Source: Dokdonia sinensis
GTDB taxonomy: Bacteria; Bacteroidota; Bacteroidia; Flavobacteriales; Flavobacteriaceae
NCBI RefSeq assembly: GCF_003688895.1
Contig: NZ_REFV01000018.1
Location: 1 to 64,000 of the forward strand
Length of the DNA: 64,000 nt
Reading direction: 5' to 3'
Position numbers and translations under genes: made by a program. The notes under the pieces are model-generated. The model did not search any database. It was not told the DNA's origin and saw nothing but the letters and a program-made list of their open reading frames with translations. Below, in pieces: positions 5,594-61,417 of this stretch (position 1 is the first letter of the stretch; each line of letters opens with the position of its first letter).

Positions 5594-8500
5594 CTACTCC
5601 CCAACTTCACTCTCCTCAGCCTCTAACCTCAACAATGCCTGACGGTATTCCTCAGGATACACTTTCGTGAAATTTTTCACCTCATCTTCCCATTTTTCTA
5701 AAAGGCGTTGTGCCAAAGGTGAGTGCGTTGCATTGTAGTGCTTTTCGATTAAGTCGCGCAGTTCTTGATGGTCTTGCTCTGTTTCTACTTTTAGGAAATT
5801 GAGACCTTCTGCGTTTGCTTTTCGCGAAAGCGTACTTTCCTTATCATACACATAAGCAATCCCACCACTCATTCCTGCGCCGAAGTTTCTACCAACATCG
5901 CCCAAAATCACGGCGATACCGCCCGTCATATACTCACACCCGTGATCACCGATACCCTCTACAACAGCCCGCGCACCCGAGTTGCGGACACAAAAACGTT
6001 CTCCAGCCTTACCATTAATATACGCCTCACCCGAAGTCGCTCCGTAAAATGCCACATTCCCAATAATCACATTATCCTCTGGAATGATGGTTGCTTCGGT
6101 GGGGATTCTTACTATAATTCGGGCGCCAGAAAGTCCTTTCCCGATGTAGTCATTCGTATTTCCAGTCACCGAAAGGGTCAATCCTTTGGTAGCAAAAGCC
6201 CCAAAACTCTGCCCGGCAGAACCAGTAAAGTTCACCTTGAGCGTATTCTCTGGTAAGCCTTGCGCACCATAAATTTTTGAAATCTCATTACTCAGTATGG
6301 CTCCTACGGCTCTGTCTTCATTGGTTATTTTCATATCCAGCACCGTCTTTTCCTTGCGGAATAAAGCGGGATGCGCTTTTGAGATAATTTTAAAGTCCAA
6401 TGCCTTCTCTAGATCGTGGTCCTGATTTTCTACGTGACGTAAAGGCTGGTCTTTTCCAGCAGGAACTTGGTGTAGAATTGGGGATAAATCCAATCCTAAT
6501 GCTTTAAACTGTTTGATGGCGGTATTGCGTTCTAATTTATTTACTTGTCCTACCATTTCATCCATCGTCTTAAACCCGAGTTGTGCCATAATCTCGCGCA
6601 ATTCCTGAGCGACGAAATACATAAAATTCACCACGTGCTCCGGCTTTCCTTTAAACTTCTTGCGCAAGTCTGGATTCTGCGTAGCAATTCCCACGGGACA
6701 GGTATTGAGATGGCAAACGCGCATCATTATACATCCCGAAGCGACCAAAGGTGCCGTGGCAAAACCAAACTCCTCTGCGCCCAGCAGGCAAGCAATGGCA
6801 ACATCGCGCCCTGTTTTGAGTTGGCCGTCACATTCCAGTCGTACTCTGCCTCTCAGATTATTCATTACAAGGGTTTGCTGTGCTTCAGCGAGACCTAGTT
6901 CCCAGGGAAGGCCCGTATGTTTCACCGAAGTTAGTGGCGTTGCACCCGTTCCTCCATCGTGACCAGAGATTAGGATTACATCTGCTTTTGCTTTGGCCAC
7001 ACCTGCGGCCACAGTTCCCACGCCGACTTCGGAAACCAATTTTACATTTATACGAGCTTCCCTGTTTGCAGATTTTAAGTCGTAAATCAATTGCGACAAA
7101 TCCTCTATGGAGTAAATATCGTGATGCGGTGGCGGGGAAATCAATCCTACGTAGGGCGTTGAATTTCGAGTTTTGGCAATTTCTGGATCTACTTTGGGTC
7201 CTGGAAGCTGGCCTCCTTCACCTGGTTTTGCACCTTGTGCCATTTTGATTTGAATCTCCGTAGCGTTGGTAAGATAGTTAGAGGTCACTCCAAAACGTCC
7301 AGATGCCACCTGCTTTATGGAGCTGTTGCGCCAGTCACCATTTACATCTTTATAAAAACGCGTCTGATCCTCACCTCCTTCTCCAGAGTTACTCTTCCCA
7401 TCGATGCGGTTCATCGCAACGGCAAGTGTTTCGTGGGCTTCTTTACTTATGGAACCATAAGACATCGCCCCAGTTTTAAACCGTTTTACAATATCCGTCC
7501 ACGGCTCAACCTCATCAATGTCTATGGGGTCGTGGTTTGTAAACTCAAACATACCACGTAGGGTCATCAGTTGTTTGGCTTGATTGTTTACCCTTTCGGC
7601 GTAATCTTTATAGACTACGGGTTTGTTGCTTCTAACTGCTTCTTGAAGTTTAGCAATCGTCATTGGGTTAAACAAATGCGCTTCCCCATCTCTTCTCCAG
7701 CGGTATTCTCCGCCCATTTCTAAATCTAGGTTTGCTGGAATGTCTGCTTTCGCGTAAGCGGAAGAATGACGTTTTGAAATTTCCTTTTCAATCGCGTGCA
7801 ACCCAATTCCTTGAATCCTAGTCACTGTACGTGGAAAGTACTTTTCTACCGTCTGGGTGTTGATCCCGATGCACTCAAAGAGTTGCGAACTGCGGTACGA
7901 GTTCAAGGTCGAGATGCCTATTTTGTTCATCACCTTGAGCACTCCTTTACCCACCGCCTTGTTAAAATTCTGAATGGCCTCCTCTACCGTGGCGTCAGAC
8001 ATCGCTAGGTCTTCTGGGTGATGTTCGATGATTTCATTTACCATATAGGGATTTATCGCACTCGCTCCATACCCGAATAGGAGTGCAAAATGATGCACCT
8101 CACGAGGCTCAGCAGACTCAATAATGAGGCTCAATTGTGACCTTTTGTTGTGATTTGCCAGGCCGTTATTTACATAAGAACAGGCGAGCAATGCTGGGAT
8201 GGGCGCCAGTGTCGCGCTCGTATTACGATCTGAAAGAATGATAATATTTGCTCCCTCATCCAGCGCAACACTTACATTGTGCAACAGCGATTCCAGCGAT
8301 TCTTCCAGCCCGTTGTGTCCTTTTTCAATAGCATACAGCATCGAGACGGACTCGACCTTAAAGTTTTCATTATTGTAACTTTTAATCTTGTCCAAATCCT
8401 GTTTTGAAATGACTGGGTTTTGAATCTTCAACTTTTTACAATGTTCTGGACTGATGTCAAAAATGTTATAGTCGGCTCCCAGCGTTAAGGAAATATCAGT

Positions 8501-10135
8501 TATCAGTTCCTCCCGAATCCCGTCTAGTGGCGGATTTGTTACCTGCGCAAATAACTGCTTGAAGTAGTTGTAAATCAGTTGTGGTTTTTGCGAAAGCACA
8601 GCTATAGGCGCATCATTTCCCATAGACCCTATAGGTTCTTTAGCATTTACCGCCATCGGTAGGATAATGGTATTGATGTCTTCCTGCGTGTAGCCAAAAG
8701 TCAGCATTCGGTTTTTGAGCGGTGCTTCGTCCAGAAACAAGGGACACTCATTATAAGGTATATCTCTAAGGTGAACCAAATTCTTATCGAGCCACTCTTG
8801 ATAAGGGTGGCGCGAGGCAATTTCTTCTTTGATTTCTTCGTCGTTTACAATGCGCCCCTGCACCATATCCACCAAAAACATTTTTCCGGGTTCTAATCTC
8901 CCGTGAAATTCTAGGTTTTCTGGAGCAATCTCGACCACACCTGTTTCTGAAGACATAATCACATAACCATCCTTAGTCACCGAGTAGCGCGAGGGTCTTA
9001 ATCCATTTCGGTCTAGGACTGCTCCTATGTAATCTCCGTCTGTAAACGGTATGGAAGCCGGACCGTCCCAAGGTTCCATCAGGCAAGAATTGAATTCGTA
9101 AAAGGCGCGTTTTGCAGGCGACATATCGTCGTTTTTCTCCCACGCTTCGGGCACGAGCATCATCATTACTTCGGGAAGTGAGCGCCCTGTCATAAGCAGC
9201 AACTCCACCACCATATCCATAGAAGCACTGTCTGATTTCCCTGGAAGCACGACGGGTAACACGGCTTTGATTTCGTCGCCAAAATATGGGCTCTGCATCA
9301 ATTCTTCCCGCGCGTACATTCTCGTCACGTTCCCGCGCAACGTATTAATTTCCCCATTGTGACACATATATCTAAACGGCTGGGCAAGGTCCCAGGTTGG
9401 GAATGTATTGGTCGAGAATCGTTGGTGCACCAATGCTAGTCGCGTCACCACACTCGGGTCCATCAACTCCTTATAATATATCTTGATATCCTCTGGGATG
9501 AGGAGTCCTTTATATATGATGGTTTTGGTCGAGAAACTGGGCAAATAGAAAAAGGTGCGTTCGGAGAGTTTTGAATTGTATATGGTATGCTCGGTTTTCT
9601 TACGAGCGGTAAATCTTTTTAAGTCAAATGCAAACTGGTAGGAGGTTTCTTTGTTCGCTTTCGCGAAAGCGGACTCATCCCCATCACGGTCATAAGAAAC
9701 AAACACCTGCTTAATAAATGGCTCAGAAACAGAAGCGATCTCTCCCAAAATCGACGCCTCTACAGGCACATCGCGCCAGCCCAAAACGGTAAGCCCTTGC
9801 TCCCGAAGATTATCCTCAAAAAGTTGCACACACCACGCACGCTGGTTCTCCTTACGCGGAAAAAACACATTACTCACCGCATATTGCCCAGCCTCTGGAA
9901 GTTCAAAATCACATTCCTTTACAAAGAAATCGTGGGGAATATCAATAAGAATTCCCGCGCCGTCACCTGTCTTCCCATCTGCACTTACGGCGCCTCTATG
10001 TTCTAGTTTTTCAAGAATCTCGAGGGCCTTATGTATAATGTCATTAGACTTTTCTCCTTTAAGGCTACATATAAATCCTGCACCGCAAGCATCGTGTTCA
10101 AATTCTGGAAGATATAATCCTTGTTTTTTTAGCAT
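5594..10135 (-). CDS. gltB: Glutamate synthase large subunit (GOGAT alpha chain)
   Basis: 1513 residues from the ATG at 10135. I chose this start because the amidotransferase nucleophile Cys (DACGAGF) is then residue 17, giving a normal short propeptide; the longer ORF to 10234 adds 33 unsupported residues. The N-terminal class II glutaminase domain releases ammonia from glutamine. The central and FMN-binding synthase domains follow, with the 3Fe-4S cysteines in CIMMRVCHLNTCPVG, and the C-terminal beta-helix rich in GxxxGxxY repeats closes the protein. The coding sequence contains three copies of the window's palindrome (5820, 7746, 9657), read as LSRK, AYAKA and AFAKA. The porin-glnB-amtB operon runs divergently. 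Confidence 0.97.
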   Translation of the reverse strand: MLKKQGLYLPEFEHDACGAGFICSLKGEKSNDIIHKALEILEKLEHRGAVSADGKTGDGAGILIDIPHDFFVKECDFELPEAGQYAVSNVFFPRKENQRAWCVQLFEDNLREQGLTVLGWRDVPVEASILGEIASVSEPFIKQVFVSYDRDGDESAFAKANKETSYQFAFDLKRFTARKKTEHTIYNSKLSERTFFYLPSFSTKTIIYKGLLIPEDIKIYYKELMDPSVVTRLALVHQRFSTNTFPTWDLAQPFRYMCHNGEINTLRGNVTRMYAREELMQSPYFGDEIKAVLPVVLPGKSDSASMDMVVELLLMTGRSLPEVMMMLVPEAWEKNDDMSPAKRAFYEFNSCLMEPWDGPASIPFTDGDYIGAVLDRNGLRPSRYSVTKDGYVIMSSETGVVEIAPENLEFHGRLEPGKMFLVDMVQGRIVNDEEIKEEIASRHPYQEWLDKNLVHLRDIPYNECPLFLDEAPLKNRMLTFGYTQEDINTIILPMAVNAKEPIGSMGNDAPIAVLSQKPQLIYNYFKQLFAQVTNPPLDGIREELITDISLTLGADYNIFDISPEHCKKLKIQNPVISKQDLDKIKSYNNENFKVESVSMLYAIEKGHNGLEESLESLLHNVSVALDEGANIIILSDRNTSATLAPIPALLACSYVNNGLANHNKRSQLSLIIESAEPREVHHFALLFGYGASAINPYMVNEIIEHHPEDLAMSDATVEEAIQNFNKAVGKGVLKVMNKIGISTLNSYRSSQLFECIGINTQTVEKYFPRTVTRIQGIGLHAIEKEISKRHSSAYAKADIPANLDLEMGGEYRWRRDGEAHLFNPMTIAKLQEAVRSNKPVVYKDYAERVNNQAKQLMTLRGMFEFTNHDPIDIDEVEPWTDIVKRFKTGAMSYGSISKEAHETLAVAMNRIDGKSNSGEGGEDQTRFYKDVNGDWRNSSIKQVASGRFGVTSNYLTNATEIQIKMAQGAKPGEGGQLPGPKVDPEIAKTRNSTPYVGLISPPPHHDIYSIEDLSQLIYDLKSANREARINVKLVSEVGVGTVAAGVAKAKADVILISGHDGGTGATPLTSVKHTGLPWELGLAEAQQTLVMNNLRGRVRLECDGQLKTGRDVAIACLLGAEEFGFATAPLVASGCIMMRVCHLNTCPVGIATQNPDLRKKFKGKPEHVVNFMYFVAQELREIMAQLGFKTMDEMVGQVNKLERNTAIKQFKALGLDLSPILHQVPAGKDQPLRHVENQDHDLEKALDFKIISKAHPALFRKEKTVLDMKITNEDRAVGAILSNEISKIYGAQGLPENTLKVNFTGSAGQSFGAFATKGLTLSVTGNTNDYIGKGLSGARIIVRIPTEATIIPEDNVIIGNVAFYGATSGEAYINGKAGERFCVRNSGARAVVEGIGDHGCEYMTGGIAVILGDVGRNFGAGMSGGIAYVYDKESTLSRKANAEGLNFLKVETEQDHQELRDLIEKHYNATHSPLAQRLLEKWEDEVKNFTKVYPEEYRQALLRLEAEESEVGE
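5820..5832. repeat. Palindrome, near copy inside gltB
   Basis: TTTCGCGAAAGCG, translated LSRK in the gltB frame. Confidence 0.8.
7746..7759. repeat. Palindrome, one-mismatch copy inside gltB
   Basis: GCTTTCGCGTAAGC, translated AYAKA. Confidence 0.75.
9657..9670. repeat. Palindrome GCTTTCGCGAAAGC inside gltB
   Basis: Exact copy, translated AFAKA. Confidence 0.9.
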
Positions 10136-15086: not shown

Positions 15087-15100
15087 AAGTGTGGGTTTAT

Positions 15101-15114
15101 GCTTTCGCGAAAGC
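15101..15114. repeat. Palindrome GCTTTCGCGAAAGC
   Basis: Exact copy between the divergent phosphodiesterase and truA genes. Because it is open in all frames it creates a false N-terminal extension of truA. Confidence 0.9.
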
Positions 15115-15144
15115 GTAAAAACCTCCGCAACAATTATCTTTACC

Positions 15145-15152
15145 CAAAAATA
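15145..15152 (-). promoter_or_regulatory. -7 box for the phosphodiesterase gene
   Basis: CAAAAATA on the plus strand is TATTTTTG on the minus strand (TAnnTTTG), 59 bases upstream of the start. The opposite-strand TATCTTTA at 15135-15142 probably serves truA. Confidence 0.45.
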
Positions 15153-15159
15153 CGACAGT

Positions 15160-15918
15160 TTGCGTTATTTCATTGAGCTTTCTTACTTCGGAAAATCCTA
15201 CCACGGCTGGCAACGACAACCCAATGCTGTTACCGTGCAACAAACCATCGAGGAAGCCTTGTCCACAATTTTAAGGCACGATTTGAAAATTATGGGTGCA
15301 GGTCGCACAGATACGGGGGTGCACGCCACACAAATGTATGCCCACGTAGATTTTGACTTTGAGAATGCTCCCTCTTCTGAAGATGACTTAAATAAACTCA
15401 CTCACAAACTCAACAGATTTCTTCCTCCAGATATTGCCATACGATCCATTTTTAAAGTAAGCAATGAGGCTCATACACGCTTTGACGCTACGGCACGTTC
15501 TTACGTATATCGTGTTGCGCTGGACAAGAATCCATTTACTACGGATGCCGCGTTTTATTGCAAATCTCCACTTGACATTGACAAGATGAACAGTGCCGCT
15601 CAGATTCTAATGAACTACTGTGATTTCGAATGTTTCTCAAAGTCAAAAACAGACGTGAACACGTATCTTTGTAACATTACGGAAGCAAGATGGGAGGAGG
15701 TAGAAAATGAACTTGAATTTCATATCACGGCAGACCGTTTCTTACGTAATATGGTGCGTGCCATCGTAGGAACCCTTATCGAGATAGGCCAGGGAAAACA
15801 ACCGGTGGAATGGATACACGAGGTCATTGCAAGTAAAACAAGAGGAACAGCCGGAACATCAGTGCCCGCGCAAGGATTATATCTAACTAAAATTGAGTAC
15901 CTAAAAACGATTTTTTAA
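15160..15918 (+). CDS. truA: tRNA pseudouridine(38-40) synthase TruA
   Basis: 252 residues from a TTG at 15160, which begins MRYFIELSYFGKSYHGWQRQ as in other TruA proteins. The upstream in-frame GTG at 15091 is rejected because the extension runs through the 14-bp palindrome and a -7-like box (TATCTTTA, 15135-15142). The catalytic aspartate lies in GRTDTGVHA (Asp51). The enzyme isomerises uridines 38-40 of the tRNA anticodon arm. The next gene, an ABC exporter, begins 8 bases downstream, so the two are probably cotranscribed. Confidence 0.95.
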   Translation: MRYFIELSYFGKSYHGWQRQPNAVTVQQTIEEALSTILRHDLKIMGAGRTDTGVHATQMYAHVDFDFENAPSSEDDLNKLTHKLNRFLPPDIAIRSIFKVSNEAHTRFDATARSYVYRVALDKNPFTTDAAFYCKSPLDIDKMNSAAQILMNYCDFECFSKSKTDVNTYLCNITEARWEEVENELEFHITADRFLRNMVRAIVGTLIEIGQGKQPVEWIHEVIASKTRGTAGTSVPAQGLYLTKIEYLKTIF

Positions 15919-17782: not shown

Positions 17783-17796
17783 GCTTTCGCGAAAGC
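17783..17796. repeat. Palindrome GCTTTCGCGAAAGC
   Basis: Exact intergenic copy between the ABC exporter and uvrB. Confidence 0.9.
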
Positions 17797-23581: not shown

Positions 23582-23595
23582 GCTTTCGCGAAAGC
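23582..23595. repeat. Palindrome GCTTTCGCGAAAGC
   Basis: Exact copy; here the symmetry extends to 24 bases (ATTAC... to ...GTAAT, 23577-23600). Confidence 0.9.
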
Positions 23596-24130: not shown

Positions 24131-24541
24131 TTAAGAAATCACATCTGCGAGCGTCCTGTTGTCTAGGACATCTAAAGTCCTATCTCGCACCTCTAACATT
24201 AAGGTATGAAGGCTACAGACATCCTCATCAGGACAATCGTCACAGCGCTCATAAAAGTTTAAACTAACACATGGTAGTAATGCTATGGGACCTTCTAGTA
24301 CTCGTATCACCCCAGACATTTTGATACTCTCTGGCTCTCTTATCAGGTAATAACCGCCACCTTTTCCTTTTTTGCTTCCTAAAAAACCTGCCTTGCGCAG
24401 TTGCAATAGGATACTCTCCAAAAATTTCTTTGAAATATTTTCTGCATCTGCAACTTGCTGGATGAGGACCGGACCTTCTCCTTTATGTTTTGCAATGTAG
24501 GCTAGGGCTTTGAGACCGTATTTTGTTTTTCGCGAAAGCAT
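24131..24541 (-). CDS. Rrf2-family transcriptional regulator with four C-terminal cysteines
   Basis: 136 residues. The N-terminal winged helix-turn-helix is typical of Rrf2 proteins (TKYGLKALAYIAKH; ISKKFLESILLQLRKAGFL; KGKGGGYYL). The C-terminal half carries Cys91, Cys100, Cys103 and Cys109, suitable for an Fe-S cluster or thiol sensing. The first codons are built from the dispersed palindrome (ATGCTTTCGCGAAA gives MLSRK). It follows ctlX by 15 bases, at the end of a leftward cluster with a bacillithiol-type reductase, so redox or iron sensing is a reasonable inference. A -7 box at 24546-24553 would make its own transcript leaderless. Confidence 0.88.
   Translation of the reverse strand: MLSRKTKYGLKALAYIAKHKGEGPVLIQQVADAENISKKFLESILLQLRKAGFLGSKKGKGGGYYLIREPESIKMSGVIRVLEGPIALLPCVSLNFYERCDDCPDEDVCSLHTLMLEVRDRTLDVLDNRTLADVIS
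24528..24539. repeat. Palindrome, 12-bp match forming the start of rrf2
   Basis: TTTCGCGAAAGC on the plus strand; on the minus strand it overlaps the ATG and codons 2-5 of the Rrf2 gene. Confidence 0.8.
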
Positions 24542-25514: not shown

Positions 25515-25522
25515 CAAAATTA
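25515..25522 (-). promoter_or_regulatory. Internal -7 box before ctlX
   Basis: Plus strand CAAAATTA, i.e. TAATTTTG on the coding strand. It overlaps the last codon of ypdA. No -33 TTG at the usual distance. Confidence 0.4.
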
Positions 25523-26491
25523 CAACTTACTTACTACATCTCGTAGGATAATAGTGGCGTGCTCACGAGTATTTTCTATAAAAAGTTTACTGGTCTGGAG
25601 ACCAGCATTTATCACTCCGGCAACGTAGACCTTAGACAGCGGTGTTTCAAGTGTTTCCGGGTTGTGAATTGGGATCTTATCATCATCATCACTTATGGGA
25701 AGCCCCAGCTTTTCAAACAAGGCGTAATCGGGTTTATACCCAATCATTGCCAGGACAAAATCATTTTCCAGCGTCACCTCTCCGTCTGGTGTTTGAAGTA
25801 GCACCGTATTTGCAGTGATTTGAGACACTGTAGTATTGAAATATGCCTTTATGGAACCTTCCTTGATTCTGTTCTCGATGTTAGGTTTTATCCAATACTT
25901 TGTTTTGGAATATATCTCGGAATCTCGTATGGCCATTGTGACCTCGGCACCTTTATAAAAAGTTTCCAGCGCCACATCGCAGGCAGAGTTTGCTGCTCCT
26001 ACGACCAGTATTTTTTGACCCACGTATGGATGTGGGCTGTCATAAAAGTGTTTGACCTTAGGCAAGTCCTCACCAGGCACGCCCAGCATCCTGGGAGTAT
26101 CGTAAAAACCGGTGCAGATGATGACCGCTTTCGCGAAAGCGGCACCCTTATCAGTCACCACATCATAACCTCCATCACGAGGCTTCATTGCCTCCACCCT
26201 CGTATACAACTTGACATTTAAATCCCAAGCTTCCTGCACCCGGCGAAAGTACTCCAAGGACTCGTTGCGCGTAGGCTTATCTGTATGGGATATGAAAGGC
26301 ACATCTCCTATTTCCAAAAGATTAGACGTGGAGAAAAAGGTCATCTGTTCTGGAAAATTATATAGTGAATTAACCAAAACTCCTTTCTCCACAATAAGAT
26401 AATTGAGATTTTCCTTTTCGGCAGCGATACCGCAAGCAAGACCGATGGGGCCTGCTCCGATAATAATTAAATCAAATTGCTTTCCGTCCAT
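25520..26491 (-). CDS. ypdA: YpdA-family putative bacillithiol disulfide reductase
   Basis: 323 residues, a flavoprotein of the thioredoxin-reductase superfamily. It has the N-terminal FAD motif GAGPIGLACG (near residue 12) and a second NADPH motif GAANSACDVAL near residue 172. It lacks the redox CxxC of thioredoxin reductase, as expected for YpdA. The family reduces oxidised bacillithiol, the low-molecular-weight thiol of many Bacteroidetes. An exact palindrome copy at 26127-26140 is read as AFAKA. It starts 2 bases after the end of trkH, so it is in the trk transcription unit. Confidence 0.88.
   Translation of the reverse strand: MDGKQFDLIIIGAGPIGLACGIAAEKENLNYLIVEKGVLVNSLYNFPEQMTFFSTSNLLEIGDVPFISHTDKPTRNESLEYFRRVQEAWDLNVKLYTRVEAMKPRDGGYDVVTDKGAAFAKAVIICTGFYDTPRMLGVPGEDLPKVKHFYDSPHPYVGQKILVVGAANSACDVALETFYKGAEVTMAIRDSEIYSKTKYWIKPNIENRIKEGSIKAYFNTTVSQITANTVLLQTPDGEVTLENDFVLAMIGYKPDYALFEKLGLPISDDDDKIPIHNPETLETPLSKVYVAGVINAGLQTSKLFIENTREHATIILRDVVSKL
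26127..26140. repeat. Palindrome GCTTTCGCGAAAGC inside ypdA
   Basis: Exact copy, translated AFAKA. Confidence 0.9.
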
Positions 26492-29424: not shown

Positions 29425-29438
29425 GCTTTCGCGAAAGC
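29425..29438. repeat. Palindrome GCTTTCGCGAAAGC
   Basis: Exact intergenic copy between trkA and ubiE. Confidence 0.9.
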
Positions 29439-31330: not shown

Positions 31331-32073
31331 ACAAGTGACGAGCGCCTAAACTCACTCAAACAAATCGCCGTAGCTGTGGCAACATTTAAACTTTCGGTGG
31401 CTTGCTGTGGTCCAAATCTTGGGATTCCTAAACGGTTTGTGACTAAGCTCTCAATTTCTGCCGAAATTCCATTTGCCTCGTTCCCCATCACGAGGATTGC
31501 CTCCTTGGGCAAGACGCTTTTATAGATGTCCTCCCCATCCATAAACGTTCCGTATACAGGGCGTTTCTCACTTGCTAGATATGCGTTCAAATCTTCATAG
31601 GATATTTGCACTCTTGTAAGAGAACCCATTGTGGCCTGAACTACTTTTGGGTTGTAACAGTCTACCGTTTGTTTTGAGCACACAAGCTCCGTAATCCCAA
31701 ACCAGTCGCACAGTCTTATGATGGTACCCAGATTTCCAGGATCACGCACATCGTCTAACACTAAAGTGAGCCCTTCTCGCTTTTTGCTTTCAGCCGCGGG
31801 GATTTTAAAAATGGCGAGTGCGGTTTGAGAAGTGCTTAAAAAGGTTACTTTCTTAAGTTCTTGAGCTGTTACTGTTTCAAAAGTGATGTTTTGGGCTGAT
31901 AACGCTTTCGCGAAAGCGGCCTCCTCCTCCACCCACAATCCATCCAGCTTAAAAGTGGAATCCAGAAGTTCCTGAATGACCTTCACACCTTCGGCAACAA
32001 AGGCTTGTTCCTTAATGCGGTACTTTTTTTGACCGAGGCTCGTTATTCGTTTGGATTGACTTTTGCTTAACAC
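31324..32073 (-). CDS. TrmH-family (SpoU) RNA 2'-O-methyltransferase
   Basis: 249 residues from the GTG at 32073 (MLSKSQSKRITSLGQKKYR), which is the usual flavobacterial N-terminus; the GTG at 32121 overlaps the divergent tamL start. The SpoU motifs are visible: DDVRDPGNLGTIIRLCDWFG, VMGNEANGIS and QATESLNVATATAI, which form the knotted SAM site. The N-terminal substrate-binding domain is present. The target is probably a 23S rRNA or tRNA ribose. It contains an exact palindrome copy (31904) read as AFAKA. Confidence 0.9.
   Translation of the reverse strand: MLSKSQSKRITSLGQKKYRIKEQAFVAEGVKVIQELLDSTFKLDGLWVEEEAAFAKALSAQNITFETVTAQELKKVTFLSTSQTALAIFKIPAAESKKREGLTLVLDDVRDPGNLGTIIRLCDWFGITELVCSKQTVDCYNPKVVQATMGSLTRVQISYEDLNAYLASEKRPVYGTFMDGEDIYKSVLPKEAILVMGNEANGISAEIESLVTNRLGIPRFGPQQATESLNVATATAICLSEFRRSSLVY
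31904..31917. repeat. Palindrome GCTTTCGCGAAAGC inside the trmH-family gene
   Basis: Exact copy, translated AFAKA. Confidence 0.9.
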
Positions 32074-32112: not shown

Positions 32113-34683
32113 TTGAAGCACGCTCTTGCAAAAATATCATTAATTCTTCTACTACCACTTCTAATCTCAGGATGCGATGCTACACGCCGCCTTGCCGAAG
32201 ATGAGCACTTACTCGAAGAAAATATTATCATTAAAAATGGCGAGGAGCTTAAAGATGGACGTATCAAGAATCTACTTTACCAGCAGCCCAATGCCAAGAT
32301 AGCAGGCATACCATTACGCCTCTTTATTTATAATGCGGCACGCCCTGATATAGATTCTATTATGGCCGAGCAACGTGCTCGTAATGATGGAAGGAGGACG
32401 TTTTGGAACAGTCTGCTTTCGCGAAAACAAGTAGAAGCCGTACGCCAGTTTAAAATAAACTTTAATAAAGGTCTCAAAAAAACAGGCGAAGCCCCGGCTA
32501 TTGTAACTAAGAATATTACTGAAAAATCTGTTAAACGACTTACTACCTATTATGCAAACACAGGATACTTTAATACTAAAATTGATTACCAGATAAAAAA
32601 AGACAGTAATCAGCGAGCTGTAGTAGTGTATAAGGTGGAAACTGGAAGACCTTATAATATTGGAAAAATTACCCCAATCATAGCTTCTCCAGCGGCAGAC
32701 TCGATTTATGCTGCACACCGCGATGAGAGTTTTATTAAAAAAGGGAAACAATATGCCACGCTAGATGTAAATGCAGAGCGCGCTCGTCTGACCACGCTTT
32801 TTAGAAACAATGGCCTGTTTCATTACGAGCCAGACCGATTTAGCGTCACAGCAGACAGTGTGAAAACAGATTACAAAGTAGATTTAGATCTTGTTATTGA
32901 AAATAGAAAAATTACGGAGGAAGACAGTATAATAGACTTACCTTATAAAGTACATAGGTTGTCTCGTGTAAATATCCTTACAGATTATAGTTATGACAAT
33001 AGGAACAAAACATTCCAGGATACTATAATCGCGAGAGGTTTTAATTTTCTGGCTTATGATAAAATAAATTATCGCACAAAAGCCCTTACAGATATTATCC
33101 CTCTAGAACCTGGCGATATTTATAGAGACAGAGATAGAACGGCTACGCTGAGCAGGTTGAGTAGCCTGCGAACCTTTAAATATCCTAGCATACAATATAT
33201 CGCAGATCCTGCAGACAGTACAGGCACAGATCTTATAGCTACCATACGCCTTACACCGCTCGAAAAATATAAGTTCAGGGCTGACTTTGACGTTTCTACA
33301 TCTAATATTCAGGATATAGGTCTTGCTGGTTTTGGGTCGCTACTCATTCGGAATTTATTTCGCGGGGCAGAGACCCTCGAGATTTCTGGTAGAGGAAGCA
33401 TAGGAGCTTCGGATGATGCAGCAAATGAGGGTAACGGGTTTTTTAACATCACAGAAATAGGCGCCGACTTAAAACTTACCTTCCCCCGCATATTTTTTCC
33501 TATAAACACAAACAAACTTATCCCTGCAGACTGGCAACCTACAACAAATCTGAATGTAGGTTTAAGCACACAACAGAATATAGGTCTAGATAAGCAAAAT
33601 GTGGCTGGAGCGTTGAGCTATAATTGGTATCCTCGTAAGACACGTAGTTTCCGTTTTGACCTATTAGACATCCAGTACGTGCGCAACTTGAATGTTGGAA
33701 ATTATTTTAACATCTACACAAACTCCTTTAACGATCTAAATACTATTGCAGTAAATAATTTTGATGCAGCCGATCCTAGTTTTTTTAACCTAAGTGATAC
33801 GAGCGGAAATCCTAGACTTAATATAGGAGATGGTGGAGCAAATAGATTTATAAATGCAGTACAAAATGGAGAGGTCTCGAGCGTCACGGCAGAAGAAAGA
33901 AATGACGTAAACGCCATTGAAGAGCGTCGGGAGCGCCTTACTGAAGATAACCTTATTCTGGCCACAAACTTCTCATATATTTATAATAATAGGCAAAACC
34001 TTTTTGACAATACGTTTACACGTTTACGATTACGTTTAGAACTTGCAGGAAACGCGCTTTCTCTAGCATCATCTCTTGCTGGGGTAGAAGCTAATGAAAG
34101 TGGTGGCGAGGAGATATTTGGCGTTGTGTACTCACAATACGCAAAAACCGAGATAGACTACAGTCGTCATTGGAGTCTAGGTGGAGAAAAGATTTTAGCC
34201 TTACGTGCATTTACTGGAATTGCTGTCCCATATGGAAACTCAAGAAACATACCTTTTACGCGCAGTTTTTTTGGCGGTGGTTCTAATGATAACAGAGCTT
34301 GGCAGGCCTACCAGTTGGGACCTGGAAGAAGTGGAGGTCCAAATGAGTTTAATGAGGCAAATATGAAACTTGCACTCAACCTCGAGCAGCGTTTTAAACT
34401 GCTCGGCCCGATAAAAGGAGCGCTTTTTATTGACGCTGGAAATATCTGGAATGTGTTTGATAATGTGGAGGATGAAGGGGCTAAATTTAACGGAATTAAC
34501 AGTCTTGTAGACACGGCGATAGGGACTGGATTTGGATTGAGATATGATTTTGATTTCTTTGTTTTCCGTTTTGATATTGGATTTAAAACATACAACCCAG
34601 CATTACCAGAAGGTGATAGATGGTTTAAGCAATATAACTTCTCAAATGCTGTCTATAATATTGGGATCAATTATCCTTTCTAA
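32113..34683 (+). CDS. tamL: BamA/TamA-family outer-membrane lipoprotein (TamL type)
   Basis: 856 residues from a TTG. The signal peptide ends in a lipobox (LLISGC, Cys21), a feature of the Bacteroidetes TamL variant. Several POTRA domains occupy roughly residues 30-400, and a C-terminal 16-strand barrel with an Omp85-type FGGGSNDNRAW motif follows, ending in NIGINYPF. It should take part in assembly of outer-membrane or surface proteins; a cognate TamB is not in the window. The divergent trmH start is only 39 bases away, so the two promoters must overlap. A palindrome-like GCTTTCGCGAAAA (32415) is read as LSRK. Confidence 0.88.
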   Translation: MKHALAKISLILLLPLLISGCDATRRLAEDEHLLEENIIIKNGEELKDGRIKNLLYQQPNAKIAGIPLRLFIYNAARPDIDSIMAEQRARNDGRRTFWNSLLSRKQVEAVRQFKINFNKGLKKTGEAPAIVTKNITEKSVKRLTTYYANTGYFNTKIDYQIKKDSNQRAVVVYKVETGRPYNIGKITPIIASPAADSIYAAHRDESFIKKGKQYATLDVNAERARLTTLFRNNGLFHYEPDRFSVTADSVKTDYKVDLDLVIENRKITEEDSIIDLPYKVHRLSRVNILTDYSYDNRNKTFQDTIIARGFNFLAYDKINYRTKALTDIIPLEPGDIYRDRDRTATLSRLSSLRTFKYPSIQYIADPADSTGTDLIATIRLTPLEKYKFRADFDVSTSNIQDIGLAGFGSLLIRNLFRGAETLEISGRGSIGASDDAANEGNGFFNITEIGADLKLTFPRIFFPINTNKLIPADWQPTTNLNVGLSTQQNIGLDKQNVAGALSYNWYPRKTRSFRFDLLDIQYVRNLNVGNYFNIYTNSFNDLNTIAVNNFDAADPSFFNLSDTSGNPRLNIGDGGANRFINAVQNGEVSSVTAEERNDVNAIEERRERLTEDNLILATNFSYIYNNRQNLFDNTFTRLRLRLELAGNALSLASSLAGVEANESGGEEIFGVVYSQYAKTEIDYSRHWSLGGEKILALRAFTGIAVPYGNSRNIPFTRSFFGGGSNDNRAWQAYQLGPGRSGGPNEFNEANMKLALNLEQRFKLLGPIKGALFIDAGNIWNVFDNVEDEGAKFNGINSLVDTAIGTGFGLRYDFDFFVFRFDIGFKTYNPALPEGDRWFKQYNFSNAVYNIGINYPF
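32415..32427. repeat. Palindrome, near copy inside tamL
   Basis: GCTTTCGCGAAAA, translated LSRK. Confidence 0.7.
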
Positions 34684-34702: not shown

Positions 34703-34716
34703 GCTTTCGCGAAAGC
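34703..34716. repeat. Palindrome GCTTTCGCGAAAGC
   Basis: Exact intergenic copy between tamL and the histidine kinase gene. Confidence 0.9.
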
Positions 34717-37951: not shown

Positions 37952-39466
37952 TTGCACAAAAAAACCATCCTTATGATACTTGACGGCTGGGGTATGGCCC
38001 CAGACAAAAAGGTATCTGCCGTAGACAAAGCTCACACTCCATTTATAGATAGCTTGTACAATAAATATGCCCACAGCACCTTACTTACACACGGCGGTAA
38101 TGTAGGGCTTCCTGATGGACAGATGGGCAATAGCGAAGTAGGACATATGAATCTGGGCGCTGGTCGCATTGTCTACCAAGACCTTGCAAAAATCAATCTT
38201 GCTATAAAAGATAATACCCTTAAAGACGAGCAAGCACTCAAGGATGCATTTACTTATGCAAGAGAAAATAATAAGTCCGTTCACTTATTGGGACTCGTTT
38301 CTGACGGGGGTGTGCACTCCCACATAGACCATCTTAAAGGTCTGATCACAGCTTCGGAAGCAGCGGGCGTGCAACGCACGTTTATACACGCATTTACAGA
38401 CGGTCGTGATGTAGACCCAAAGTCAGGCAAAGAGTTTATAGAGGATGTAAACGCTTTCGCGAAAGCGCACAAAGCACAACTCGCCTCCGTCATAGGCAGA
38501 TACTATGCAATGGATAGAGATAAGCGCTGGGAGCGCGTAAAACTCGCATATGATCTTATTGTAAAAGGCGCAGGAACACCTTCAAAAAATATAGGACAAT
38601 CACTTCAAGACAGCTACGATAAGGGCATTACAGATGAGTTCATAGAACCTATTTTCCTTACCGAAGATGACCAATCCATCTCAACAGTAAAGGAAGGCGA
38701 TGTCGTTATCTTTTTTAACTTCAGGACAGATCGGGGTCGCGAGCTTACAGAAATGCTTTCGCAAAAGGATTTCAAAGACCAAGAAACCACAAAACTTGAT
38801 TTATACTACGTCACAATGACTAACTACGACGAGACATTTAAAAACGTGCACGTCGTTTACGATAAAGATAATCTTACAGACACTCTAGGAGAAACCCTCG
38901 CTAAAGCTGGTAAAAAACAAATACGCATCGCCGAAACTGAGAAATATCCTCACGTAACCTTCTTCTTTAATGGGGGTCAAGAAACACCGTTTGAGGGAGA
39001 AAGCAGGTTACTTTGTCCTTCACCTAAGGTTGCGACATATGACTTACAGCCCGAAATGAGCGCGTTTGAAATAAGAAACAAAATCATTCCCGAAATCAAA
39101 AAAGGTGAAGTTGATTTTGTATGTCTCAACTTTGCAAATCCAGATATGGTGGGTCACACTGGAGTTATGGAAGCCGCCATAAAGGCCTGTGAAACTGTAG
39201 ATCAATGCACAAAAGACATCGTAAACGTTGCTCAAGAAAATGACTATACCGTCATCATTATTGCAGACCACGGTAATGCCGAGACAATGATTAATCCAGA
39301 TGGTAGTCCTAATACGGCACATACGACTAATCCTGTTCCCATCATTTTAGTAGATAAGGATATTAAAAACATTAAAAATGGAATCTTAGCAGATGTCGCC
39401 CCAACTATTCTACACTTATTAGGCGTCCCGCAACCAAGTGCTATGGACAGAAAATCATTAGTATAA
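37952..39466 (+). CDS. gpmI: 2,3-bisphosphoglycerate-independent phosphoglycerate mutase
   Basis: 504 residues from a TTG (MHKKTILMILDGWG). A Mn2+-dependent glycolytic enzyme of the alkaline phosphatase superfamily that interconverts 3- and 2-phosphoglycerate. The first metal ligand is Asp11, and the phosphoserine nucleophile is Ser61 in MGNSEVGH. The C-terminal metal site is visible in NFANPDMVGHTG and DHGNAE. A -7-like TATCTTTA (37922-37929) precedes the start. An exact palindrome copy (38453) is read as AFAKA. Confidence 0.96.
   Translation: MHKKTILMILDGWGMAPDKKVSAVDKAHTPFIDSLYNKYAHSTLLTHGGNVGLPDGQMGNSEVGHMNLGAGRIVYQDLAKINLAIKDNTLKDEQALKDAFTYARENNKSVHLLGLVSDGGVHSHIDHLKGLITASEAAGVQRTFIHAFTDGRDVDPKSGKEFIEDVNAFAKAHKAQLASVIGRYYAMDRDKRWERVKLAYDLIVKGAGTPSKNIGQSLQDSYDKGITDEFIEPIFLTEDDQSISTVKEGDVVIFFNFRTDRGRELTEMLSQKDFKDQETTKLDLYYVTMTNYDETFKNVHVVYDKDNLTDTLGETLAKAGKKQIRIAETEKYPHVTFFFNGGQETPFEGESRLLCPSPKVATYDLQPEMSAFEIRNKIIPEIKKGEVDFVCLNFANPDMVGHTGVMEAAIKACETVDQCTKDIVNVAQENDYTVIIIADHGNAETMINPDGSPNTAHTTNPVPIILVDKDIKNIKNGILADVAPTILHLLGVPQPSAMDRKSLV
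38453..38466. repeat. Palindrome GCTTTCGCGAAAGC inside gpmI
   Basis: Exact copy, translated AFAKA. Confidence 0.9.
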
Positions 39467-40100: not shown

Positions 40101-40113
40101 GCTTTCGCGAAAG
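40101..40113. repeat. Palindrome, near copy (GCTTTCGCGAAAG)
   Basis: Intergenic; the flanks TATGC...GTGTAA are the same as in the copy at 61405. Confidence 0.8.
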
Positions 40114-43330: not shown

Positions 43331-44344
43331 TTAATCTACAATCAACTTCTCAAATCCTGCAGTAGCGTACGTTCCTTTAGTATTCCCTTCTCCAGCAAAA
43401 ACAAGATATGCTTCGATTCCATCAAGGGCTGCTAATAATGATTTAGAACGCTCTAAGCCCATTGCCATAAAAGCGGTTGCATAAGCATCTGCCGTGGCAC
43501 AGTCCTTTGCGATTACGGTAGCGCTTAGTACATCACTCTTTTCGGCGGAGCCTGTTAGTGGGTTTATGGTGTGAACGTATTCTTTTCCTGTGAGCTCATC
43601 TACTCTATTTTTTCGGTAGTTTCCTGAGCTGGCCATCGAGACATCTGAGAGTCCTACTAAAATAGAGGATGATCTGTCCGTAAGTTTTGAGTCAATGCTC
43701 TCTACTCCTACTGACCACGGTTTTCCCGAAGTTTGGTTCTTCCCTCGAGCTCGTATTTCGCCCCCGAGTTCAATAAGATAGTCGGCTTTGTTTTTAGCTT
43801 CTAAATAGATTGCGATGCGGTCTATACCATAGCCTTTGGCAACTGCATTAAAGTCAAAATAAATTTCTGGATATTGCTTACTTATGGTGCCGTCAGCTTT
43901 TAATTCGACTTTATCAAATCCTACATATTGCATCATAGAATCTAATCTTGTGCTATCAATTTCGGCAAGGGGTTTTGTATCTCCAAAGCCGTAAGCATTG
44001 CGCAGGGTTCCTACGGTTGGGTCAAAATAGTGGGAAGTGGTCTGGTACAGCTTTCGCGAAAGCGTAAAAACGTCCCTAAACATTTCATCCACCACAATAG
44101 TGCTATCGCCACGATTTATTTTTGAGATATCGCTGTCTTCTATATAGGTGCTCATAGACTGGTTTACAACTGTGACTACAGAGTCTATACTTTTCTGGAT
44201 GATTGGAGCATCGTCCACATTTCCATAATATTTTACGGCGTAGGTTGTCCCAAAGGCTTCCCCGCGAATGGTGATCTCATCGGATGTTTTCTCTTTATTA
44301 CAACTAAAAAGCGTTAGTACGAGAAGGTATAGAAAATAGCGCAT
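43331..44344 (-). CDS. apbE: FAD:protein FMN transferase ApbE (lipoprotein)
   Basis: 337 residues with a lipobox at Cys15 (LTLFSC). ApbE attaches FMN covalently to threonines of NqrB and NqrC, so it matures the Na+-NQR encoded at 57339-63893. Family features are GEAFGTTYAVKYYG at the start, FDFNAVAKGYGIDRIA and the metal-binding C-terminal segment DCATADAYATAFMAMG. An exact palindrome copy (44050) is read as LSRK. It is translationally linked to the upstream small gene by a TAATG overlap. Confidence 0.94.
   Translation of the reverse strand: MRYFLYLLVLTLFSCNKEKTSDEITIRGEAFGTTYAVKYYGNVDDAPIIQKSIDSVVTVVNQSMSTYIEDSDISKINRGDSTIVVDEMFRDVFTLSRKLYQTTSHYFDPTVGTLRNAYGFGDTKPLAEIDSTRLDSMMQYVGFDKVELKADGTISKQYPEIYFDFNAVAKGYGIDRIAIYLEAKNKADYLIELGGEIRARGKNQTSGKPWSVGVESIDSKLTDRSSSILVGLSDVSMASSGNYRKNRVDELTGKEYVHTINPLTGSAEKSDVLSATVIAKDCATADAYATAFMAMGLERSKSLLAALDGIEAYLVFAGEGNTKGTYATAGFEKLIVD
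44050..44063. repeat. Palindrome GCTTTCGCGAAAGC inside apbE
   Basis: Exact copy, translated LSRK. Confidence 0.9.
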
Positions 44345-48106: not shown

Positions 48107-49375
48107 TTAATTTGTGATGTCTGTGGAGTTTGTCTGCCCGTAACCTATCAATTCATCAAAACGTCCTCCGGGCCTGCGATAGTACACCAGAATTTGATAC
48201 TCATTTTCTGTTTGCCAAAAATTACCGCCAGGTTGGATCTGAGGGTCTATCTCTCCATTTTTGTCTACAATAACATACTTGTAATTGTAAAAACCTTGCT
48301 TCAATAAATACGGGAGCTCATAAATCTGTTGTTTCTCATTCCACTCCATGGTTGTTGTTTTCTCAATCTCATAATTATTGAAGTTTCCATAAACATGCAT
48401 TTCCTGATCATCTTCTAGTTTGGGATGCTGGAGTGAAAAATGGATCCACACGTACTCTGCCTCGCTCTCAGGATTTATCCCTTGAAGCGTTGTTACCAGA
48501 AAATTACCGTTTATATCTGGGTTGTATGTGTATATTTGATCGCGTCGTGTTGGGTTTGTAAAAAGAAAGTTATGGTATAAATCGCGTACCTCAATGTATT
48601 GAATTGCAGCTGTGGCGGCTCTAAAATCCCTGTTTTCGAACCCAAAAAATTCATTCCCTGCCCAAAAAGCAGTTTCCTCATCATAACGATACTCTAATTT
48701 TGTACCAATAGTATATTGAGGCTCTATATCTGTAATAGCAGTTTTTAGGTTATTATTTTGTAGCAACACGACTTTTACGTTACGCCTTGGATTTATAAGT
48801 TGGTCATCACCTCCATCCACAAAAAAGCGTAATGTTTGTTTCTCATCTACAAACTCCAGATCTCTCGGTCGTTTAACTTGCGCTCCTACGGCAAGTGCTG
48901 GCGTATATATCATAAATTTTCTAGAGAAAATAAGCTCGTGGTTATCATTATATATACTGAGCATATAATTCCCTGTTTTTGTAAGCCTCTTTACATTCCT
49001 GTTAGGGATTTTTAACCTATAATGAGTATATAACTGAAGGACAGCTACGGAGTTTTCATAATCAAGAATTCTCACATCATCCATCCCATCCATAAATTCT
49101 GAACGCATTAAGTTACTCTCTGTCCAGTCTGCATTATGGTGGGTAATCTTATAAAAGTAATTTGCCTCGTCACCTATAATATCGTCAAAGCTTAACTCTA
49201 GACCCGATCCTAACCTAATGATAGGAAGTTGTGCTTGGGCGTTGAGAAGGCTTCCGCTTTCGCGAAACTGGACCGTACGAATAAATGGCGGAGCAGGCAT
49301 TTCTTCGGCCGCTTGTGCAAGTAAATTTCCGGTTGAAAGTAAAATAAGTGAAAGAAAAAAGTATATGCTTTTCAT
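48107..49375 (-). CDS. Type IX secretion plug protein (DUF5103)
   Basis: 422 residues from the ATG at 49375 with a signal peptide (cut near NLLAQ). The ATG at 49396 lies in the -7 box and is rejected. The sequence matches the DUF5103 family, beta-sandwich proteins of which one member plugs the SprA translocon of the type IX system: RTVQFRESGSLLNAQAQLPIIRLGSGLELSFDD and DLEFVDEKQTLRFFVDGGDDQLINPRRNVKV. A near palindrome (49256) is read as FRES. Confidence 0.85.
   Translation of the reverse strand: MKSIYFFLSLILLSTGNLLAQAAEEMPAPPFIRTVQFRESGSLLNAQAQLPIIRLGSGLELSFDDIIGDEANYFYKITHHNADWTESNLMRSEFMDGMDDVRILDYENSVAVLQLYTHYRLKIPNRNVKRLTKTGNYMLSIYNDNHELIFSRKFMIYTPALAVGAQVKRPRDLEFVDEKQTLRFFVDGGDDQLINPRRNVKVVLLQNNNLKTAITDIEPQYTIGTKLEYRYDEETAFWAGNEFFGFENRDFRAATAAIQYIEVRDLYHNFLFTNPTRRDQIYTYNPDINGNFLVTTLQGINPESEAEYVWIHFSLQHPKLEDDQEMHVYGNFNNYEIEKTTTMEWNEKQQIYELPYLLKQGFYNYKYVIVDKNGEIDPQIQPGGNFWQTENEYQILVYYRRPGGRFDELIGYGQTNSTDITN
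49256..49267. repeat. Palindrome, near copy inside the plug-protein gene
   Basis: GCTTTCGCGAAA, translated in the third possible phase as FRES. Confidence 0.7.
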
Positions 49376-49478: not shown

Positions 49479-49492
49479 GCTTTCGCGAAAGC
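49479..49492. repeat. Palindrome GCTTTCGCGAAAGC
   Basis: Exact intergenic copy between the plug-protein gene and the small Cys-rich gene. Confidence 0.9.
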
Positions 49493-52441: not shown

Positions 52442-53825
52442 CTGTAAATGGTTTTATCCAATTTTTATGGGCAAAGGATTCTTCAACTTTGGCGAGGTTC
52501 ACTTCTGGATCGATATAGGTCTCACTCAGCCTCCCGTTAAGCGCTACGAAGGATTCTACGTAAACTCCGACATCTTGATGTCCTTGCGATTCAAAATGGT
52601 CGCGAAGATAATGTGCATATTCCAGAATAAAGTCTGGCTGGAAGCTCATTTGCTTTTCTTGAAGTGGCGTAAGAAAATCTGTATTATCCACGTAAAAACG
52701 TCTCCCTGTTACGCCGTCTACAATCTTAAATTGTGCATATCCGGATTTCTCCATAAGCATCACCCGCCAAGAAAAGCGATACCCCTCTTCGGTCCAGAAC
52801 AACTCGCCTGGATATGCAAGGTAACGCCAAGGCAAGAGGATTTGTACTATAAAGAAAATAGCAACGACGGTAAGCGAAACTCTAGCAACTTTCGGATGCT
52901 TCGGTTTATAGTATAGGTTAGATTCTAGGAGTTGCTTTGGGTATTTTACCGCTCCACGAGACAAGCTCGGGATAAATTTCGCGAAAGCGTAAACAATCTT
53001 CTTATGAAACCCTGCATCAAAGAAAATGAGCGCACTCACAATCATCACATACGGGAACATCCCAATGGGAAAAAGCACACGGGTGAGTAAGTGAAATATG
53101 ATGACCATCACAAAGGCAAAAATCCGGGTGCGCTTCCAAAGCAATAAAAACGGAATGAAAAGATCGTAACTAGCCCCAAACCAACTAAAAACATAAGACA
53201 CCCACTCTTCTCCCAGTACATTCCCGATAAGCGGAATGTCAAACTTAGACGGCAACCAGATTTTAAGGGGCATCGCATTTAGGAGCCAGTCGCTATTAAG
53301 TTTTGCCAGTCCCGCATAAATGTAAACTATGGCGATTAATAGCTTAATGCTGTCTATCGTCCACCGAGGGATGTATTGAATGGGTTCTATATTACGCTTT
53401 CGCGAAAGCGTAAACGCATCTACAGAAAAATATTTTCCTGCAGGAAGAAAAATCATTAAGAAACTAAGTATGGATATGAAATAGTAATGATTGAGGTACA
53501 TCGTTTTATCCATTAACTCGATGTAGGTAAAACTCAAAAAGAAGGTTATGATAGCCCATCGATACTTCCAGCCCAATGTGATCATTAAGGAGCTAACAGC
53601 ACAAATACAAAACAACAGATACGTGTAATCTCCAAAAGGTCGAACCCATTCAAAACCATAGAAGGTAAAGTGAAACTTAGGCGCGATGTAAAATTTCTCA
53701 ATCCACCCATAACTCCAAAACCGAACGATACTCACAAACATCAAGATCCCAAAAAACACACGAAAGACCGCTAGTGGAGCGGCCTCTGTGTGGCTATTCA
53801 AATATTGGGTAATCTTGTCTTTCAT
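52422..53825 (-). CDS. HTTM-domain membrane protein (vitamin-K carboxylase-like)
   Basis: 467 residues with a horizontally transferred transmembrane (HTTM) domain of about eight helices, related to vitamin-K-dependent gamma-carboxylase, then a C-terminal soluble region (about 350-467) containing PWRYLAYPGELFWTEEGYRFSWR. The biochemical role in bacteria is unsettled. Its position between an imelysin-like gene and a TonB receptor is a recurrent setting that suggests iron uptake. It holds one exact (53396, LSRK) and one near (52977, AFAK) palindrome copy. Confidence 0.87.
   Translation of the reverse strand: MKDKITQYLNSHTEAAPLAVFRVFFGILMFVSIVRFWSYGWIEKFYIAPKFHFTFYGFEWVRPFGDYTYLLFCICAVSSLMITLGWKYRWAIITFFLSFTYIELMDKTMYLNHYYFISILSFLMIFLPAGKYFSVDAFTLSRKRNIEPIQYIPRWTIDSIKLLIAIVYIYAGLAKLNSDWLLNAMPLKIWLPSKFDIPLIGNVLGEEWVSYVFSWFGASYDLFIPFLLLWKRTRIFAFVMVIIFHLLTRVLFPIGMFPYVMIVSALIFFDAGFHKKIVYAFAKFIPSLSRGAVKYPKQLLESNLYYKPKHPKVARVSLTVVAIFFIVQILLPWRYLAYPGELFWTEEGYRFSWRVMLMEKSGYAQFKIVDGVTGRRFYVDNTDFLTPLQEKQMSFQPDFILEYAHYLRDHFESQGHQDVGVYVESFVALNGRLSETYIDPEVNLAKVEESFAHKNWIKPFTDEIKGL
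52977..52988. repeat. Palindrome, 12-bp match inside the HTTM gene
   Basis: TTTCGCGAAAGC, translated AFAKF. Confidence 0.75.
53396..53409. repeat. Palindrome GCTTTCGCGAAAGC inside the HTTM gene
   Basis: Exact copy, translated LSRK; flanks extend the symmetry (TTACGC...GCGTAA). Confidence 0.9.
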
Positions 53826-57015: not shown

Positions 57016-57029
57016 GCTTTCGCGAAAGC
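57016..57029. repeat. Palindrome GCTTTCGCGAAAGC
   Basis: Exact intergenic copy; symmetry extends to TTCCGC...GCGGAA. Confidence 0.9.
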
Positions 57030-61390: not shown

Positions 61391-61404
61391 AAAATAATAT
61401 TTAT

Positions 61405-61417
61405 GCTTTCGCGAAAG
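61405..61417. repeat. Palindrome, near copy (GCTTTCGCGAAAG)
   Basis: Lies between the heptamer array and the four-helix-bundle gene; same TATGC...GTGTAA flanks as at 40101. Confidence 0.8.

Follow-up and report, generated by a model that had tools for sequence, protein, structure and literature searches.

Few iterated genome signals are known, among them Chi, the uptake sequences and the highly iterated palindrome 1 (HIP1) of cyanobacteria, and their origin and loss are an old question. The uptake signal sequence (USS) in Haemophilus and the DNA uptake sequence (DUS) in Neisseria are uptake sequences, and the parS and Noc sites are palindromes of 14-16 bp with TTTC...GAAA half sites, present in tens of copies. 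Here we analyze a stretch of 64,000 nucleotides of Dokdonia sinensis (contig NZ_REFV01000018.1, positions 1 to 64,000; hereafter the window), in which an initial annotation made from the letters alone had noticed the iterated 14-mer palindrome GCTTTCGCGAAAGC. This motif is a genome-wide, position-conserved and evenly spaced DNA signal, both strands of which are G/T-rich into the core, and it probably marks DNA for a recombination machine or another DNA-handling machine. The signal is unusually sharp, with a seemingly single-clade origin and loss in one genus; it has copies in host as well as phage-like DNA, and its one-sided forms offer hints about its unit. A putative reader could be found by comparing the gene content of sister genera, and the evolution of such signals would be directly testable. 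Among the literature matches listed, for which coverage of subscription journals is thin, there was no report of the motif; papers containing the core TTTCGCGAAA appear unrelated by title, one of them concerning human absent words.

Across the window we found 23 matches to GCTTTCGCGAAAGC with at most two mismatches (13 exact, 4 with one mismatch and 6 with two), compared with a mean of 0.18 for all of these match types in dinucleotide-preserving shuffles, none of 100 of which reached 23. The exact copies start precisely where the initial annotation had placed them, and its judgment that they lie far above chance is borne out. The core TTTCGCGAAA occurs 20 times, with GC on both sides in 13 cases and on one side only in 7, which amounts to one core per 3.2 kb, in line with the spacing of about 3 kb given earlier, and to one exact GCTTTCGCGAAAGC per 4.9 kb. 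The whole genome (3,647,482 bases in 43 contigs) holds 857 exact copies, one per 4.3 kb, so that the motif is not confined to the window, and no copy of a reversed control sequence. Nor is its count near the Markov expectation: 464 kb, composed of 400 kb of contig C1 and the window, contain 103 exact copies against fewer than 0.005 expected under orders 1-4 (the order 5 expectation of 0.48 is inflated because it includes the motif). In the same 464 kb, the runner-up palindromes of 10, 12 and 14 letters reach 10, 3 and 3 copies, respectively; GCCTGCCGGCAGGC, another 14-letter palindrome, is present there three times.

The positions of the sites are strongly conserved. In pairs between species of the organism's own genus (g1) with at least 90% identity, 42 of 42 aligned sites are fully conserved, compared with a background of 0.585; the figures are 22 of 24 (background 0.244) at 80-90% identity and 158 of 177 (background 0.052) below 80%. 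All of these counts come from pairs in which the site could be aligned, a condition that favors conserved sites, and the pairs are not independent. Between g1 and the related genus g11, 13 g11 and 22 g1 coding sites were alignable, with 7 and 3 gapped or unaligned, and 3 of the 13 g11 sites match exactly at corresponding codons, in proteins that are 32, 37, and 65% identical; at 32 and 37% identity the motif site itself may have aided the alignment. Judging from these comparisons, natural selection seems to keep the sites in place.

The alignments likewise indicate that copies arise by substitution in place. Orthologue rows that lack a site are ungapped around it in 31 of 37 cases (41 of 74 sites had no comparison); 3 of the 37 are gapped on the lacking side, 2 of these relative to a genome that has a site there in another frame. 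Insertion of a transposable element, or of one like the repetitive extragenic palindromic (REP) sequences, is not supported, given that only those 3 rows are gapped on the lacking side. At the end of uvrB, the site is present in genomes G254 and G017, and near-sites are found in seven other g1 genomes.

Exact copies outnumber one-mismatch copies by 103:23 in the D. sinensis stretches, 57:4 in other g1 genomes and 32:4 in g11, whereas the control mean is at most 0.1 one-mismatch sites. The changed letters of the two-mismatch variants in the D. sinensis stretches fall at the two outer positions in 52 of 64 cases, and the commonest single mismatch in the core is C to T, giving GCTTTTGCGAAAGC (7 of 23 one-mismatch copies), which could reflect tolerance or cytosine deamination. 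A palindrome with a CG-rich center, an excess of exact sites and outer-biased deviations, the last also described for HIP1 (PMC4390886), are what would be expected if methylation and biased mismatch repair made and kept the sites, as for a HIP1-type sequence linked to a methyltransferase. However, chance near-sites are too rare to serve as seed (control mean 0.1 one-mismatch sites per 464 kb), flanks of 20 nt go unexplained, and the three methyltransferase families searched are not universal in the genus: PF00145 was found in 8 of 18 genomes, PF02086 in 12 of 18 (including two weak matches) and PF01555 over the cut-off in 1 of 18. In four genomes (G005, G006, G009 and G010) no member of these families exceeds the cut-off, among them the single-contig genomes G006 and G009 with 757 and 808 copies. 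HIP1-rich genomes that lack a CGATCG enzyme are also described in a passage by Elhai (PMC4390886). We regard methylation-driven maintenance as very improbable, and the methylation target proposed by the initial annotation finds no support from these three families.

Sites are also spaced more evenly than under random placement. This regularity, like the strand-asymmetric flanks, the one-sided sites and the conservation at orthologous positions and in phage-like contigs, lay beyond the reach of the initial annotation. On contig C1 (90 sites) the coefficient of variation of the gaps is 0.65 versus 0.99 for random placement, and 2 gaps are shorter than 1 kb where 18 are expected; in g11 (104 sites in 460 kb) the values are 0.44 versus 0.98 and 0 versus 20.8. 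Genome G016, sampled in 40 windows of 20 kb, has 220 full sites with a mean of 5.50 and a variance of 3.59 per window, and 13 of 180 gaps are below 1 kb versus 49 expected. By an open reading frame (ORF) heuristic, 150 of 322 full sites are intergenic although intergenic DNA makes up 11.1% of bases, and 171 lie inside genes, in accordance with the earlier statement that copies are spread both in genes and between them. Among the 171 coding sites, 94 are in frame 0 (Ala-Phe-Ala-Lys).

Twofold symmetry, even spacing, strong positional conservation and intergenic enrichment would suit a chromosome-organizing site, that is, a palindrome bound about every 4 kb by a dimeric nucleoid, loop-anchor or nucleoid-occlusion-like protein. 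Avoidance or enrichment near the origin or terminus had been raised by the initial annotation, and in G016 the density is slightly lower, by about one-third, around the skew-inferred terminus at 1.64-2.38 Mb of the contig (41 sites in 10 windows versus 179 in 30, p 0.03, with windows picked post hoc). Yet the ParB family, the only nucleoid-type family searched (PF02195), is present in 36 of 36 author-selected genomes, and extra copies do not track the motif; in G208, where the motif is almost absent, the helix-turn-helix stretch of ParB is by eye unchanged. Such a site would not be expected to come in one-sided forms or with a strand-asymmetric flank, and phage-like contigs have no obvious need of it. 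A role in chromosome organization is thus rather unlikely in our view.

The 14-mer extends to CGCTTTCGCGAAAGCG in ~88% of half sites, and both strands are G/T-rich and C-poor for ~20-24 nt into the core. On the strand directed toward the core, C mostly makes up 1-7% at positions 3-13, 7-15% at positions 14-24 and ~15-20% farther out, and the mean G+T content of positions 2-20 is 0.65 versus 0.49 at random places. The pattern recurs in other g1 species and in g11 and is weaker in G254 (11 sites, a genome richer in GC). Intergenic sites have TTACGCTTTCGCGAAAGCGTAA in common, and their flanks are enriched in GGG (5.4 fold), in GTG, GGT and TGG (1.8-2.0 fold), and in TTT and GAG (also 1.8). There is a weak 3-nt phase in 176 intergenic flanks (chi-square p 3e-10 for positions 5-22 and 4e-4 for positions 8-22; p 0.02 by permutation of the profile), and control positions 23-40 give p 0.64. 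In coding flanks codon phase confounds this test, and the control there is also significant (p 4.5e-5).

The core could, in our reading, fold with a 6-bp stem, and together with the intergenic enrichment this brings to mind a hairpin in single-stranded DNA or RNA acting as a terminator, processing site or primosome site. Against such a hairpin, the left and right flanks do not covary (the largest |z| is 1.9 over 25 positions of 160 sites), more than half of the full sites lie inside genes, and one-sided sites, which are unable to form the outer stem, still keep the flank of their complete side. We give this explanation hardly any credence.

The one-sided sites hint at the unit of the signal. 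Of 238 TTTCGCGAAA cores from D. sinensis and g1 loci, 191 are flanked by GC on both sides and the other 47 on one side; none lacks it altogether, so that the 12-mer TTTCGCGAAAGC, with GC on at least one side, is kept in all 238. Seventeen of the 47 one-sided sites are one letter away from a full site and resemble decayed full sites, with G+T of 0.58 and 0.64 on the two sides. The other 30, two letters away, have C of 0.10 and G+T of 0.59 on the complete side, compared with 0.20 and 0.52 on the lacking side. Because the flank bias differs between the two sides of these 30 sites, the unit is probably directional and the palindrome a pair of overlapping units. The pattern suggests a directional unit composed of TTTCGCGAAAGCG and a biased flank, usually doubled; read on one strand it would be a G/T-rich run followed by CGCTTTCGCGAAA, and most sites would consist of two such units overlapping on a common TTTCGCGAAA. 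No difference in gap length was seen between the two sides of one-sided sites (p 0.39), although complete-side gaps are shorter than those between full sites (p 0.018, uncorrected). Two one-sided sites stand back to back 47 bases apart on C1 (386159 and 386206, in L026), a split palindrome, and another such pair, 210 bases apart, lies at L304:7680. The lacking side of several one-sided sites, in D. sinensis and at g1 loci, adjoins recurrent ACTTCGCTCAG-like or CCCGAAATAAATTCGG-like sequences, which are perhaps terminators or a REP-like repeat.

Among the genomes sampled, the motif is common in three genera only. Counting in relatives, as the initial annotation had proposed, gave 369-905 exact copies in each of the 18 g1 genomes among 118 relatives; of the 100 relatives outside g1, G027 has 578 copies, 8 genomes have 1-17, and 91 have none. 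The 12-mer CTTTCGCGAAAG is present in 445-933 copies in 6 of 397 genomes of the family, namely two of g1, three of g11 and one of g219, the sampled genomes of the two related genera having 445-685; the remaining 391 do not exceed 21. Exact copies occur in 22 of 395 genomes from the phylum, and only that of D. sinensis has more than 6. In the two g173 genomes sampled, the 12-mer is found 13 and 8 times. In a UvrB tree that includes other families and places our organism within the Flavobacteriaceae, g11 groups with (g1,(g219,g173)) with moderate support (97/79); this is a single-gene tree with a midpoint root and long-branch warnings on some distant rows. Because the g173 genomes, inside this clade, have so few copies, one origin in the clade g1/g11/g219/g173 and one loss in g173 would be the simplest history, with moderate support. 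Although a UvrB identity of only 78% could point to horizontal gain of the motif by g11, this tree and the three exact positions shared with g1 favor a single origin instead.

Copies are also found in phage-like DNA. We observed the exact 16-mer in 41 stretches from 30 viral contigs, several of which have portal, terminase, head, tail-sheath or tape-measure genes; some of the motif-bearing contigs may be proviruses. Eleven of the 30 contigs have 2-6 copies, altogether 30 in 249 kb (0.12 per kb). The maximum, 6 in 37.4 kb (0.16 per kb), compares with 0.18 per kb in the D. sinensis stretches and 0.20 in G016. These densities come from motif-bearing contigs only and are biased upward because contigs with zero copies are unseen. 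In phage-like stretches with less than 80% identity, from few related groups, 28 of 43 aligned sites are conserved versus a background of 2.1%, and the flank bias of viral sites is weaker (C 0.12, T 0.40); loci with a GC content of at least 0.5 were excluded from the 44 viral sites listed, some of them on both strands, and from the conservation count. Named phage and plasmid records gave 2 and 1 matches, respectively, a chance-level result from unrelated hosts in a search sensitive to ~17 identical letters.

A copper/heavy-metal resistance-type island (L206-L217, for example L208:1019-19207) also has motif copies and recurs in several genera, in genomes G278, G142, G151, G165, G400 and G029, and in G224 as judged by a 933-base spacing. 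Its pieces are ~67-97% identical by blastn, two motif copies in it are often 933 bases apart, and it encodes a resistance-nodulation-division pump, a multicopper oxidase, P-type ATPases and an outer-membrane efflux protein (families were run on L208 only). At less than 80% identity, 40 of 88 aligned island sites are conserved (background 4.4%). The low counts in other genera stem partly from the spread of this island, which appears to trace transfer out of hosts rich in the motif.

The apparent single-clade origin, the loss in one genus and the conserved sites in phage-like contigs would also fit some other clade-specific reader, for example a defense or self-recognition system that spares DNA bearing the sites. 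No candidate gene for it was found, a gene-content comparison not having been made, and we consider such a system improbable on present evidence.

A DNA uptake sequence is the more serious competitor. Here a surface or periplasmic receptor would prefer motif-bearing DNA during natural transformation, and uptake followed by recombination would accumulate sites. The substitution origin fits, since USS are described as evolving by point mutation (PMC7811141), and so does the clade restriction; USS are likewise made up of a core and flanking segments, and their abundance is called relatively even in one passage of the same source and uneven in another. Relatives can be competent, as shown by two naturally competent Riemerella species (PMC7965970), and a passage of that paper describes F. 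johnsoniae as not naturally competent. On the other hand, PF00482, the only pilus-type or type II secretion family searched (T2SSF/PilC type), is present in just 7 of 18 genomes of the genus and 1 of 3 of g11 and absent from D. sinensis itself and from G254, and its presence in 8 of 22 motif-rich versus 5 of 33 other genomes shows no correlation; a different machine may serve instead. Sites are present and conserved in some phage-like contigs, and the flank is strand-asymmetric G/T rather than AT tracts. We regard uptake as a live but doubtful explanation. Of the roles suggested by the initial annotation, uptake stays in contention and recombination is favored, while methylation is not supported by the three families searched.

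The reading that we tentatively favor, though well short of an even chance, is that the motif acts like Chi but in both directions, as a signal for the processing of DNA ends and the formation of RecA filaments. A DNA-end-processing machine, either an AddAB-type enzyme or another clade factor, would meet the core from either side and there switch to recombination, leaving a 3' single-stranded tail with the G/T-rich run and the core at its end, on which a RecA filament would be stable. The even spacing would keep any break within a few kilobases of a site, and phage DNA with sites would be processed as self and not degraded. A single-strand step fits better than groove recognition because the G/T run is strand-asymmetric, ends at the core and is present on both strands. 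RecA filaments are reported to be most stable on TGG repeats, with 3 nt per monomer and nucleation in groups of more than five, and Chi is surrounded by TG-rich DNA (PMC3763553). A Chi-like role is favored because the density is near that of Chi in E. coli, one per 5 kb (PMC8022716), and the richest phage-like contig comes near host density; lambdoid phages that do not inhibit RecBCD have Chi at about host density (PMC3784561).

As to possible enzymes, RecC was detected in none of 55 genomes, which leaves RecBCD unsupported as the reader. A PF12705 protein of AddB-like size is present in 17 of 17 genomes, with a second PF12705 match ~4-6 kb away in 14 of 17, a pair that we read as a putative AddAB. 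The genomes for the RecC, PF12705 and PF00482 searches were, as for ParB, selected by us. The AddB tree gave no sign that AddAB was transferred along with the motif.

Several points weigh against the Chi-like reading. Chi motifs are 5-8 nt long. The leading-strand polarity of Chi is not seen in the one-sided sites, which show no preferred orientation relative to replication in the 40 windows of G016 (14 versus 21 of 35, p 0.31). The period-3 signal is weak, with much of it at positions 5-7, and one-sided sites, with 30 to draw on, have a weaker flank signal than full sites do. No AddB column (~760 of 900 residues, 17 genomes) separates motif genera from others, a test with little power because a whole-clade control also gave 0; AddB of G208, a genome almost devoid of the motif, is closer to that of D. 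sinensis (46%) than the g11 AddB is (38-39%). In the viral contigs, 19 of 30 hold a single 16-mer, and site density is below host density in most. Known Chi motifs are given as 8 nt (PMC8022716), compared with a unit of 12-13 nt here, and RecA is stated in a passage of PMC3763553 not to nucleate at Chi. Just as tentatively, the motif could be a hitherto undescribed recombination or self-recognition code: a directional core of 12-13 nt with a RecA-favoring run of 20-24 nt, mostly doubled, about every 4 kb in the chromosomes of the clade and in some phages, whose putative protein reader would date from the clade ancestor and have been lost or changed in one genus.

Within the window, the full two-sided sites (no strand assigned) are distributed as follows. 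Those in genes are found within the glutamate synthase large-subunit gene (9657..9670), at the predicted 5' end of ORF 15091-15918 (15101..15114), and within ORFs 25520-26491 (26127..26140), 31324-32121 (31904..31917), 37952-39466 (38453..38466), 43331-44344 (44050..44063) and 52422-53825 (53396..53409). Others lie between the MsbA-like ABC transporter gene and uvrB (17783..17796), between tamL and a hybrid histidine kinase gene (34703..34716), and upstream of trkA (29425..29438) and nqrA (57016..57029); the sites at 23582..23595 and 49479..49492 are intergenic by the ORF heuristic. One-sided sites that are two letters off a full site are located at 5820..5831 (a TTTCGCGAAAGC copy), 24528..24539 and 52977..52988 on the plus strand and at 49256..49267 on the minus strand. 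Three more on the minus strand, at 32415..32426, 40101..40112 and 61405..61416, are one letter off and may be decayed full sites. Degenerate copies, again without strand, are present at 7746..7759 (one mismatch, in the core), 8584..8597 and 38755..38768 (two mismatches each).

In conclusion, the motif resembles known iterated signals but misses two testable features of Chi, length and polarity. With parS and Noc sites it shares a 14-16 bp palindrome with TTTC...GAAA half sites, but it is present in hundreds of copies rather than tens, and no ParB paralogue or visible change of the helix-turn-helix tracks it. The likeness to HIP1 or uptake sequences that the initial annotation had pointed out, with a different sequence, holds. 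Like HIP1 and the alternate HIPs of cyanobacteria, the motif is an iterated palindrome with a CG-rich core whose outer positions vary most; in contrast to HIP1, it is longer and about fourfold sparser than the once per 1000 nt reported (PMC4390886), has long strand-asymmetric flanks and one-sided forms, and none of the three methyltransferase families is universal. With the USS and DUS of Pasteurellaceae and Neisseriaceae it has in common hundreds of copies, an origin by substitution, a core with flanking segments and clade specificity, whereas its core is palindromic, its flank is G/T-rich rather than made of AT tracts, it is conserved in phage-like contigs, and the single pilus-type family tested (PF00482) does not track it. 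Compared with the Chi sites of RecBCD and AddAB, the motif is 12-13 nt long rather than 5-8, occurs mostly as two-way palindromes without leading-strand bias, is strongly conserved in position and is confined to three genera among those sampled. It shares with Chi a density of about one per 4-5 kb, a G/T-rich context, a unit that may be directional, a presence in some phages, and an occurrence both in and between genes.

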